Shown: positions 33,160-58,622 of the stretch, one piece after another | How the letters are laid out: every line of letters begins with the position of its first letter | How positions within the stretch are numbered: position 1 is the stretch's first letter | IMG/VR virus record: IMGVR_UViG_3300020179_000033 | Location: 1 to 60,561 of that record | Source of the DNA: a virus | Reading direction: 5' to 3' (one strand) | DNA: 60,561 nucleotides | Position numbers and translations under genes: made by a program | The notes under the pieces: generated by a model | The model's input: the letters and a program-made list of their open reading frames with translations, nothing else | What the model was told of the DNA's origin: nothing | Database searches by the model: none

Positions 33160-33782
33160 AAAAGAACATAAGTAAAAAAGTAGATCTCGAAAAAAATGAC
33201 GGCTTATCCGGGTATCTAGGATTTGCCTGTCAGCAGCATCATGGTATTTATAGAGTTTTTTATGATTTTTTAAACGATGTAAAACCTAGTAATATTTTAG
33301 AAATTGGAACAGCTCTTGGCGGGTTTACTCAATATTTAAAATATGTTAATGATCTGATAGGTAATACTGATTGTAGAATTTTAAGCTATGAAATTCACTA
33401 TCAAAACTGGTATGAAGATATGAAAGCGCAAGGTATAGATGTTAGGGTTGAAAATATATTTTCTACTGATTATTCTGAAGTTAAGCCAGAAGTCATTGAT
33501 TTTATTAGGTCACCGGGGACTACTATAGTATTTTGCGATGGTGGTAGTAAAAAAGATGAATTTAATATTCTTTCATATTATTTAAAAAATAAAGATTTTA
33601 TTCTTGCTCATGATTATGGTTATAGTAGAGATATATTTCTTCAAACAGCACATGGTAAAATTTGGAATTGGTGTGAAATAATAGAGGCAGATATAGAAGC
33701 AGCTGTTTCAAGAAATAACTTAAAAGACTATAAAAATGAAATTTTTAATGAGGTTGCATGGACATGCAAAGCTAAAGTATGA
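33150..33782 (+). CDS. Class I SAM-dependent methyltransferase (CmcI-like)
   Basis: A 210-residue Rossmann-fold protein. Motif I is NILEIGTALGGFTQYLKYV. The acidic residue after strand 2 is in ILSYEIHYQNW, and the later strands are TTIVFCDGGSKKDEFN and FILAHDYG, the metal-binding Asp/His pattern of small O-methyltransferases and cephalosporin-hydroxylase-like proteins. In this setting it probably O-methylates a sugar. It overlaps the genes on both sides (10 bp and 4 bp). Confidence 0.75.
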   Translation: MEIEKNISKKVDLEKNDGLSGYLGFACQQHHGIYRVFYDFLNDVKPSNILEIGTALGGFTQYLKYVNDLIGNTDCRILSYEIHYQNWYEDMKAQGIDVRVENIFSTDYSEVKPEVIDFIRSPGTTIVFCDGGSKKDEFNILSYYLKNKDFILAHDYGYSRDIFLQTAHGKIWNWCEIIEADIEAAVSRNNLKDYKNEIFNEVAWTCKAKV

Positions 33783-36097
33783 ATTTATTTGAAAAAATAA
33801 GACATTTTATTAACAGTAAAGTTGATGCTAGTATTATTAATGATGAACAAATTAGTTATCTGGTGTTATATTTAATAGAAGCTCTAAATGAAAAGCTCGA
33901 AGGCGATGTAGTTGAATTAGGTTGCTATGTAGGCGAATCTAGCAAATATTTACAAAAAACACTTTTAGAAGCTAAGGCTAATAAAAAACTATATGTTTAT
34001 GATTCGTTTGAGGGGCTCCCACCATTATCTAAATATGAAGAGCATACAGGCTGGACAGAGGGTGGGTTAGCAACTACAGAAAATGCATTAAGAGCTAATT
34101 TTGAAAAAAACAACTTACCTCTACCGACAATTACTAAAGGATGGTTTAAAGATATTAAACCCGAGCAACTACCTGAAAAAATATGCTTTGCATTTTTAGA
34201 CGGTGATTTTTATGATTCTATTTATGATAGTCTAAATAAAGTTTACGATAGAGTTGTAGAAAAAGGCTATATTTTTATTCATGATTATGATAGAAAAGAT
34301 TTACCAGGAGTAGCTGCAGCGGTTAACGACTTTTTTAATGAAAGACACTACACTTTTAATGTTGTAAAGTTATGTGATCAATTAGCAGTTATTCAAAAAA
34401 ATACACAGTTAGAAGTTGTCGAAATACCGAAATCGCCATATACAATAGTTACAGGTCTTTGGGATATTGGTAGAGATAAATTAACTGAAGGTTGGTCTCG
34501 TTCATTTGAACATTATTTAAAGAAATTAGAAGAACTTTTAAAAACTGATTTTAATTTAATAATTTTCGGTGATCCAGAATTAGAGCAGTTTATTTTTCAA
34601 CACCGTCAGCACTACAATACACAATTTGTTGCAAGGAGTCTGGATTGGATAAAGAAGATGCCATTTTATGATAAAATTCAAGAAATAAGAACAAATCCAG
34701 ATTGGTATAATCAAGCTGGTTGGTTAAAAGATTCTACACAAGCTAAGTTAGAGCTCTATAATCCGTTAGTTATGTCTAAGGTATTTTTACTTAATGATGC
34801 AAGTATTTTAGATAAGTTTAATTCTGAATATTTGTTTTGGCTCGATGCAGGTATTACAAATACGGTACACCCAGGATACTTTACACATGATAAAGTTTTA
34901 GATAAGCTGCCCGCACTATTAGATGATAAATTTTTATTTGTAAGTTTTCCTTATCCTGATGGTGGTGAAATACATGGGTTTACCCGTACAAAAATGAATG
35001 AGATAGCTAATACTTCAAACGTAGAGTATGTTAACCGTGCAGGCTTTTTTGGCGGGCCGAAATCTAGTATTGGTGAAATAAATGGAATATATTATTCATT
35101 ACTTAAGGACACCCTTTCTCAGGGGCTTATGGGCACAGAAGAAAGCATATTTACTCTTATGACATATTTACACCCTCAGCTGTTTAAACGGTTTATGATT
35201 GAGGCTAACGGTTTATTAGTAACATTTTTTGAAAACTTAAAAAATATTAAAGTTGAAAAAGAAGAAACAAAAATAGTAATTGGGGAAAACAATACCGGAA
35301 CGGGTCTTTATGTAATTGGGTTTAATTCCCCCAAACAATTTGAATTGCTATGCGAAAGTTATCTTACGCATTCGGGGTTTATACGCGATACCACGAATTA
35401 TCTTTTAAATAATAGTACAGATTTATCGCTTAACAAAGAATACATTGCTTTATGTAAAAAATATAATTTTGAGCATATTAAAAAGAATAATGTTGGAATA
35501 TGCGGTGGTAGGCAGTTTATAGCAGAGCATTTTGAAACAACAAATTTAAAGAATTATATTTTCTTAGAAGATGATATGACGCTAGTTGAATCACCAGGTA
35601 CAGTTTGTCGTAACGGCTTGGCTAGATATACAAAAAATTTATTTTTTAAAATTCATAAAATAATGGATAAAGAAAAATACGATTTTATTAAATTTTCTTA
35701 TTCTGAATTTTTTGGCGATAATGGTACGCAATGGGCATGGTATAACGTGCCACAGCCAATAAGGGAGAAATACTGGCCGCACTATAATAAATTACCAGAA
35801 ATTGGTACAGATCCTAATGCACCTAGAACTAATTACACTTGTATTAAAACGATTGATGGGTTAAGTTATCTAGAAGGTGATGTATATTATTGTAACTGGC
35901 CACAACTGGTTAATAGAGAAGGTAATAGAAAGATGTTTATTACAACTAAATGGGCTCACCCTTTCGAACAAACTTGGATGTCGCATATGTTTCAACTTAC
36001 AAAAGATAAAAAACTCAAGGGCTCGGTTCTCTTACTATCTCCGGTAGAACATAATCGCTTCGATCACTATAAAAACAATTTACGTAAAGAAAGCTGA
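33779..36097 (+). CDS. Three-domain methyltransferase-glycosyltransferase fusion
   Basis: A 772-residue protein. Residues ~1-205 are a TylF/MycF-type O-methyltransferase: GDVVELGCYVGESSKYLQKT, LYVYDSFEGLPPLSK, FAFLDGDFYDSIYDSL, GYIFIHDYDR. Residues ~220-480 resemble the HtrL/YibB glycosyltransferase-like family: YTIVTGLWDIGRDKLTEG, FNLIIFGDPE, LFWLDAGITN. Residues ~500-772 begin GLYVIGFNSPKQFELL and contain YIFLEDDMTLVES, a GT-A-like DxD segment, followed by an aromatic-rich end. All three activities fit glycan assembly and capping by methylation. It ends the island and is followed by a late promoter. Confidence 0.75.
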   Translation: MNLFEKIRHFINSKVDASIINDEQISYLVLYLIEALNEKLEGDVVELGCYVGESSKYLQKTLLEAKANKKLYVYDSFEGLPPLSKYEEHTGWTEGGLATTENALRANFEKNNLPLPTITKGWFKDIKPEQLPEKICFAFLDGDFYDSIYDSLNKVYDRVVEKGYIFIHDYDRKDLPGVAAAVNDFFNERHYTFNVVKLCDQLAVIQKNTQLEVVEIPKSPYTIVTGLWDIGRDKLTEGWSRSFEHYLKKLEELLKTDFNLIIFGDPELEQFIFQHRQHYNTQFVARSLDWIKKMPFYDKIQEIRTNPDWYNQAGWLKDSTQAKLELYNPLVMSKVFLLNDASILDKFNSEYLFWLDAGITNTVHPGYFTHDKVLDKLPALLDDKFLFVSFPYPDGGEIHGFTRTKMNEIANTSNVEYVNRAGFFGGPKSSIGEINGIYYSLLKDTLSQGLMGTEESIFTLMTYLHPQLFKRFMIEANGLLVTFFENLKNIKVEKEETKIVIGENNTGTGLYVIGFNSPKQFELLCESYLTHSGFIRDTTNYLLNNSTDLSLNKEYIALCKKYNFEHIKKNNVGICGGRQFIAEHFETTNLKNYIFLEDDMTLVESPGTVCRNGLARYTKNLFFKIHKIMDKEKYDFIKFSYSEFFGDNGTQWAWYNVPQPIREKYWPHYNKLPEIGTDPNAPRTNYTCIKTIDGLSYLEGDVYYCNWPQLVNREGNRKMFITTKWAHPFEQTWMSHMFQLTKDKKLKGSVLLLSPVEHNRFDHYKNNLRKES

Positions 36098-56982: not shown

Positions 56983-57384
56983 TGGAGCTGGAGGGATTTG
57001 AACCCTCGTCTTAAACAATTTCATTTATAAGCCCTACAAGCTTATCTTAGTTTAACTTCAGAATAGATAGAACTAAGAAAAACCTATTCGATATGGTAAT
57101 TCTATACGCCTGATAACCAATTACCAAAACACGTCAGGTCGAGAATTTGTAACACACCTTACTTTACCAATTCTAATCTACAGTAAGACGATCGAGTTAA
57201 ACTAACTCGAGTTCAGCTTCTGAATCAACGAAGCCAGTCGATGCAAGAATTGCATCTGCCTCTTCTAGACTCATAGCCATGTCGAAGGTTTCTTCGGCAT
57301 TTAATAGTTTTGCTATTTTTTAATCGGAATGCCCCGATACTTGCTCTCATAAACCACACTGTTTAATCGATTCCAGTCAGCCCC
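56983..57384 (-). ncRNA. ssrA: tmRNA (one-piece)
   Basis: 402 nt on the minus strand. The 5' end GGGGCTGACTGGAATCGA and the 3' end GAGGGTTCAAATCCCTC then CAGCTCCA form the tRNA-Ala-like domain: acceptor GGGGCTG with CAGCTCC including the G3-U70 pair that directs alanylation, A73, and a normal T arm. CCA is not encoded. A resume region AAAAAATAGC precedes a 38-codon tag frame that ends TAA in the loop of hairpin CGAGTT-AGTTT-AACTCG, as in bacterial helix 5. It rescues stalled ribosomes and tags the product. Phage tmRNAs are known but uncommon. The tag does not end in the usual -LAA. Confidence 0.93.
57197..57313 (-). other. tmRNA tag-peptide reading frame (38 codons plus stop)
   Basis: Starting at GCA 57313 or the next codon AAA (same frame), the tag would begin AKLLNAEETFDMAMSLEEAD and end EAELELV, then TAA. 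It is acidic, much longer than the common ~10-residue tags, and lacks a terminal -ALAA. Both plausible resume points give the same frame. Confidence 0.7.
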
Positions 57385-57397
57385 ATGTCAAAGAACG

Positions 57398-57471
57398 TAG
57401 CGGGGGTTGGATTTGAACCAACAATCTTCTGGTTATGAGCCAGATGAGTTACCGGGTTTCTCTACCCCGCG
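57398..57471 (-). tRNA. Initiator-like tRNA-fMet(CAU)
   Basis: A minus-strand cloverleaf: acceptor CGCGGGG with CCCCGCT, so positions 1 and 72 (C and U) do not pair, the hallmark of bacterial initiator tRNA. A11-U24 in the D stem is also of initiator type. Anticodon arm TCTGG-CTCATAA-CCAGA, with two rather than three G-C pairs. T arm GTTGG-TTCAAAT-CCAAC. The overall sequence is close to E. coli tRNA-fMet. CCA is not encoded. Confidence 0.88.
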
Positions 57472-57511
57472 ATAATTACTTATTATACCGGTAGATTTTA
57501 TAATGTCAAGA

Positions 57512-58028: not shown

Positions 58029-58622
58029 TTATTTCAGCCAAACGTAGTTTGGATCCAATGCTTGAGTATCAAGATAATCCCAAACAACCCAATTATTAGT
58101 TCCCAAACGAGCTTCATACAAGTTGTGGATAAAAGCTTCCAGATCTTTGATATGCCACACATCGTCTAATAATTTATTACCGGTAGTACGCTTTTTATGG
58201 GCAACATGATCGGCATATGAATATGCAAACCCAGTAAATGGAGGTACCATACAACCCAGACCTACTAAATTACCTAAAATTCTAGAGCATACCTCTTTTC
58301 CACCTACAGAATGCATAGTAACAATAGCACCTGCAGGCTTTCCGAGTAGATGCTTCTTACCTTCAATTTGAGTCATCTTTTCAAATAGTTGCTGCATTGG
58401 AGAACCCCAAGAATCCCAATAAGTTCCGGTAGTAAAAATTAAAGCATCTGAGGCTTTAATAGCCCTTCGTACCTTTACCCAATCAAATGAGGGAGAAAGG
58501 TGTATAACCCGTACTTTCGTGCTAGGATCGCGTTTCAAAATAAGTTTTCTAACCTTTTGTATAAGGTTATTAGTATTTCCGGTACGTCCTCCGAGAGAAC
58601 CGTTTAAAATAGTAAAAGTCAT
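58029..58622 (-). CDS. Flavodoxin-fold NAD(P)H:FMN reductase-like oxidoreductase
   Basis: A 197-residue protein. FTILNGSLGGRTGNTNNLIQ is the FMN phosphate-binding loop (GSLGGRTGNT), ASDALIFTTGTYWDSWGSPM is the second flavin loop, and GKPAGAIVTMHSVGGKEVCS the third, the order seen in NADPH-dependent FMN reductases and WrbA-like proteins. It probably transfers electrons from NAD(P)H to a quinone or other small acceptor in the infected cell. It is unusual for a phage and may be an auxiliary metabolic gene. It sits between tRNA-Thr and tRNA-Glu. A TAAATA 4 nt upstream of the start overlaps the tRNA-Glu 3' end, so it may be expressed late. Confidence 0.85.
   Translation of the reverse strand: MTFTILNGSLGGRTGNTNNLIQKVRKLILKRDPSTKVRVIHLSPSFDWVKVRRAIKASDALIFTTGTYWDSWGSPMQQLFEKMTQIEGKKHLLGKPAGAIVTMHSVGGKEVCSRILGNLVGLGCMVPPFTGFAYSYADHVAHKKRTTGNKLLDDVWHIKDLEAFIHNLYEARLGTNNWVVWDYLDTQALDPNYVWLK

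Follow-up and report, generated by a model that had tools for sequence, protein, structure and literature searches.

An uncultured freshwater virus encodes a one-piece tmRNA with a long, conserved tag that ends in LELV instead of Ala-Ala

The DNA analysed here (the window) comprises the 60,561 bases of an IMG/VR virus record, which belongs to an uncultured freshwater bacterial virus with its own ribosome-rescue tmRNA. A tmRNA tag is usually pictured as short, some ten residues with LAA at the end, whereas the tag of this RNA has 33 codons, ends in -LELV and has been conserved across no fewer than 30 related virus contigs. Of the explanations that we weighed, we consider it reasonably probable that the tmRNA rescues ribosomes together with the host SmpB and that the LELV tag is a two-part degron that would be read outside the Ala-Ala pocket of ClpX. 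No earlier description of long phage tmRNA tags was found in the openly accessible literature.

The first-pass annotation had described a phage-encoded one-piece tmRNA of the Ala type at 56983-57384, and this was borne out by a cmscan of the window, in which RF00023 was matched over its full length on the minus strand (57384-56980; 89.6 bits, gathering score 47; E 1.6e-33), as well as by the acceptor stem with its seven of seven pairs, G3-U70 and A73 (Table 1). In the covariance model, the elements follow the contiguous standard order over model positions 1-374, and the RNA is not of the two-piece (permuted) type. The CCA end is not encoded.

Table 1. Positions of the tmRNA, its parts and the adjacent features in the window
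Feature	Position	Strand	Basis
One-piece tmRNA gene (ssrA), mature body G1 to A73	56983-57384	minus	RF00023 match
Discriminator A73	56983	minus	acceptor alignment
Acceptor stem, 3' strand CAGCUCC, contains U70	56984-56990	minus	pairing with 57378-57384
T arm GAGGG-UUCAAAU-CCCUC	56991-57007	minus	5/5 pairs, compensatory changes
Helix-5 hairpin UCGAGUUA-GUU-UAACUCGA, holds the stop codon	57192-57210	minus	covariation
Tag stop codon UAA	57197-57199	minus	codon table
Tag reading frame, 33 codons from GCC, AEETFDMAMSLEEADAILASTGFVDSEAELELV	57200-57298	minus	covariance model and conservation in 30 contigs
Hairpin inside the tag frame, GAUGCAA-UUC-UUGCAUC	57240-57256	minus	read by eye
Frame-determining A at -4 of the resume codon, equivalent to A86 of E. 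coli	57302	minus	A in 30/30
Pseudoknot PK1 region, stem 1 AUCGG/CCGAU, stem 2 uncertain	57312-57338	minus	covariance-model alignment and PK1 sequences of relatives
Acceptor stem, 5' strand GGGGCUG, contains G3	57378-57384	minus	7/7 pairs with 56984-56990
tRNA-Met(CAT), 12 nt upstream of the tmRNA	57397-57471	minus	ARAGORN and cmscan
Sigma-70 consensus promoter TTGACA-16-TATAAT, 12/12 matches, upstream of tRNA-Met and tmRNA	57482-57509	minus	sequence only

Starting from the tail sheath of the window (766 aa), we reached a family of virus contigs, most of them fragments, and a tmRNA was present in five of the 43 family records that were searched whole. A search with the tag peptide gave 29 IMG/VR loci, some of which lie within the same records as the tail-sheath family; together with the window, they form a set of 30 sequences, among which the tag occurs as 25 different DNA sequences and 21 different peptides. 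All 28 readable members of this family keep a fully paired acceptor (7/7) and G3-U70, over five distinct acceptor stems, and A73 is kept in 27 of the 28, the discriminator of L111 being T instead. The T-arm stems of the relatives (GAGGG, GAGAG, GTGGG, CTGGG and GCGGG) differ by compensatory changes and PK1 stem 1 also covaries, whereas PK1 stem 2 and PK2-PK4 are model-aligned with low posterior values. Evidence of this kind, drawn from sequence, establishes the RNA of the window as a functional and conserved one-piece tmRNA. Instead of forming PK1 stem 2 in the usual way, the GGCAU of the invariant PK1 GGGGCA could pair with an AUGCC that overlaps the resume codon (57296-57338).

The covariance model placed the resume codon at GCC 57298-57296, from which 33 codons are read. 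The frame of 37-38 codons that had been proposed earlier is thus too long; the open codons that precede the resume codon (AAA ATA GCA AAA CTA TTA AAT) belong to PK1 and the spacer. The other two statements about the tag hold, i.e., that it is unusually long, the most frequent published length being 10 residues (PMC11915505), and that it lacks LAA and ends in EAELELV. With the charged alanine, the full tag, (A)AEETFDMAMSLEEADAILASTGFVDSEAELELV, has 34 residues, which is about three times the usual length. In E. coli, mutation of the A at -4 abolishes tmRNA activity (PMC2481249). A short -LAA-type tag in another frame, which the first-pass annotation had named as the outcome that would overturn its reading, was looked for with the covariance model and did not appear. 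Moreover, the tag frame is open in 30/30 sequences and the other two frames in 0/30, so the frame is not due to chance.

The tag has 33 codons in all 30 sequences except for L110, in which a moved stop gives ...LELVY; the C-terminus is -[LF]ELV in the other 29, and the canonical Ala-Ala that is read by ClpXP is absent from all 30. The variable sites are distributed over the codon positions as 12/8/22, and the mean pS of 0.362, pN of 0.087 and pN/pS of 0.24 are descriptive figures as the sequences are related. Among the first six members, 25 of the 33 residues are invariant. The pattern of substitutions demonstrates purifying selection on the 33-residue peptide as a protein. Constraint is also seen at the RNA level, where synonymous sites are frozen in 25/25 at A1 (GCC), F5 (TTC), D6 (GAC), S10 (AGT), A16 (GCA) and L18 (CTT), in contrast to L11, which uses five codons. 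The A16 and L18 codons flank a putative in-frame hairpin that was read by eye (GCAA-NNC-UUGC), and the codon of I17 in its loop varies.

As the first-pass annotation had stated, the stop codon lies inside the helix-5 hairpin, and this is the case in all members. In part of the family, the stop covaries with the last Leu codon (UUA...UAA vs CUA...UAG) within the same short stem; further covariation is found as UCGAGCU/AGCUCGA vs UUGAGCU/AGCUCAA, and in other members the stem is longer or displaced. Since the last codons are shared with this stem, selection on LELV as a peptide is less certain than selection on the body of the tag.

Given the strong host-type promoter upstream, the tmRNA is probably transcribed together with tRNA-Met, which is kept at the same place in several relatives. 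The relatives without tRNA-Met have promoter-like sites directly upstream of the tmRNA, and an upstream site of this type reached p<=0.05 against shuffles in 7 of 18 distinct relatives of this kind. Ahead of the tmRNA, most members have a leader that resembles GUUCUUURACA (57385-57396 in the window), irrespective of whether tRNA-Met is present. Elsewhere in the window, an FMN reductase-like gene lies between tRNA genes (58029-58622), and the structural gene region includes a gene (33779-36097) whose product combines TylF methyltransferase and HtrL_YibB domains. The best DNA match, LR745206, had only tRNA-Met in common with the window and was set aside.

The tag was absent from 50,697 phage records in a tblastn search whose positive control, a 22-residue tag, worked, and a scan with one 9-residue pattern found no bacterial genomes that encode it. 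An approximate form of the Bxz1 tag gave no match and was dropped. Clues to the host were sought as well: neither psbA nor WhiB was found in 34 records, no related tail sheath turned up in bacterial contigs, and the relatives of the tail sheath in isolated phages are only distant and T4-like. No genes for SmpB or ClpP were found in 15 long related viral contigs, all of which are possibly fragments, and host factors are therefore assumed.

Scanning with a pattern for the 5' ends of canonical tmRNAs revealed L170, whose tag is AESNFDFAPSVAEADAFLKASGFVDAELLAA, and a follow-up scan revealed four such contigs, L270-L273, with the tags A[EK]S[NQE]FDFAPSVAEADAFLKA[SA]GFV[DE]AELLAA and with resume codons that were placed likewise by the covariance model. 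The tag body of this sister clade is homologous to that of the window, judging from an alignment score of 84 that was reached by 0/5000 shuffles. Both clades have a one-piece tmRNA and share a homologous body of 27 residues (58% identity over the tag), but in the sister clade the tag ends in LLAA, CCA is encoded and the tmRNA body is another one. Because the body is homologous and the end is LLAA, it is the C-terminus and not the body that has switched, in either direction. With the same body carrying an LLAA or an LELV end, nature offers a swap experiment in degron design.

A long tag in itself does not set the window phage apart. In a pattern-based sample of 40 distinct viral tags, some of which were read by our own frame assignment, 14 had at least 20 codons, six had at least 30 and 31 ended in AA; the only one ending in V was L196/L247. 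One viral tmRNA family, AEDNTSDLLAEAEYIFNNADEFL...LAA, has tags of 32-45 codons and 104 matches among viruses; the tags of the 80 that were retrieved and read (L318-L397) share LLAEAEYIFNNADEFL, mostly end in LAA and are apparently unrelated to the window tag. Another family, GEGYDSIEELLEAAREEY...EMVA, had seven matches, and L398-L404 together with L245 carry long tags of 34-40 codons, GEGY[DN]SIEELLEAAREEY...E(L)xM[VA]A. These families are similar to the window tag in being long and acidic, yet homology to it was not supported when tested; for the larger AED-N-T-S-D-L-L-A-E-A-E-Y-I-F-N-N family the hhalign probability was 0.9%, with 68% of shuffles scoring as high, and it is kept apart from the window family. 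Rescue tags in viruses can far exceed the known bacterial ones in elaboration. ARAGORN reported six tRNAs in the window and no tmRNA at 56983-57384. It detected four of the 30 members, one of them with a wrong 8-residue tag, and missed the other 26. It read the tag of L101 as AEAKLELV instead of the 33 codons, and that of L245 (same contig as L189) as EDATALYEAEELPMAA instead of the 40 codons, that were obtained by alignment or the covariance model. As most members are missed or their tags misread, current phage annotation probably overlooks the long-tag class.

In the mechanism that we propose, the host AlaRS would charge the tmRNA via G3-U70, as follows from established tmRNA biology, and the host SmpB and EF-Tu would bring it to ribosomes that stall on broken mRNA during infection. 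The ribosome would resume at GCC, add Ala and the 33 residues and stop at the UAA or UAG in helix 5. The body, FDMAMSLEEADAILAxxGFVD, which is shared with the sister clade, may serve as a docking or adaptor segment; it is partly helical in an AlphaFold2 model of medium confidence (one helix, residues 11-20 of the window tag; mean pLDDT 69.6), and a helix of higher confidence was predicted in a second long-tag family. The C-terminal -LELV would be an altered hook, read by another host protease or adaptor in place of the LLAA that is read by ClpX, and the rescued fragments would be sent down a route that is independent of the usual Ala-Ala contact. The first-pass annotation had proposed that the tag may recruit a different protease or adaptor, or label stalled products for another fate, and the sister tag, in which a homologous body ends in LLAA, lends this indirect support.

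A degron with a different reader is favoured over the loss of degradation because ClpX depends on Ala-Ala, which is the most important part of the tag for E. coli ClpXP (PMC7652416), the clade lacks it and the body is nonetheless conserved. Rescue without destruction, in which the LELV tag would deliberately be no degron and truncated phage proteins would be spared from ClpXP, agrees with the absence of the Ala-Ala that ClpX needs from all members and with an E. coli assay in which tag function was dispensable for phage propagation (PMC2481249). We nevertheless consider it unlikely, as an unread tag needs no conserved 33-residue peptide, while both the 25 invariant residues and the pN/pS of 0.24 speak for one. 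That the tag is an ordinary degron for ClpXP (or ClpAP/FtsH), with a host ClpX that tolerates Leu-Val or an adaptor that is bound to the body and compensates, appears quite unlikely, although the sister clade does end in LLAA and the N-terminal AEDNF is presumably similar to tag starts that bind adaptors, such as ANDNF. For E. coli ClpXP, replacing the last two alanines raises KM (PMC7652416), and all members have kept -[LF]ELV, even with LLAA present in the sister clade.

The long conserved body, and the recurrence of long tags in several viral tmRNA families, would also suit a tag that marks stalled products for another fate, e.g., binding to a phage factor or relocation. This seems very improbable: the window tag had no Pfam match and only weak chance matches in solved structures, the other ORFs of the window contained nothing like it beyond weak local matches, and most of the 14 sampled viral tags with at least 20 codons end in -AA, which points to degradation. 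Within the clade, ATG is conserved at both residue 7 and residue 9 of the tag, as would be expected of a small protein gene that starts at residue 7, but the sister clade lacks both ATGs and yet keeps the peptide, and the codons from GCC up to the ATG are conserved as well. Such a gene is hardly credible, and the same is true of a decayed tmRNA remnant, which is disfavoured because the acceptor and T-arm pairing is intact with compensatory changes.

Beyond the two-part degron, we tentatively suggest, while leaning against it for now, that large aquatic phages may run a trans-translation channel of their own, with long modular tags made of a conserved body and an exchangeable hook that is here redirected from the Ala-Ala pocket of ClpX. 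If this is true, phage ribosome rescue would be separated from host quality control. It raises a testable question: do phages only rescue ribosomes or do they also decide where the rescued proteins go?

Among the known systems, the tag of Mycoplasma sets the precedent, being likewise extended with its ALAA end replaced; ALAA was lost where ClpXP is absent, and the extended tag goes with Lon (PMC3985003), which reads it according to Gur and Sauer 2008 and Ge and Karzai 2009, as cited in that paper. It is, however, cellular rather than viral and no sequence similarity was seen. Moreover, the described Lon degrons have a C-terminal His, and acidic residues weaken them (PMC11986505), so the parallel is not a sequence match. 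Mycobacteriophage tmRNAs, i.e., those of Bongo, Rey and EniyanLRS (list in PMC4131195), are also phage-encoded and lie within a tRNA cluster, and the EniyanLRS tag is annotated as 22 residues, but the EniyanLRS and Bongo tags end in VAA and have no detectable homology to the window tag. The Melnitz-type viral tmRNA (PMC9004378) is, similarly, an aquatic myovirus tmRNA and uses the host SmpB, but it is two-piece and of the alphaproteobacterial type. From bacterial ssrA (RF00023), the window tmRNA differs in its 33-codon tag, the lack of an Ala-Ala end and a CCA that is not encoded, while it shares the Ala-type tRNA-like domain, the resume codon with A at -4, the stop in helix 5 and the one-piece architecture.
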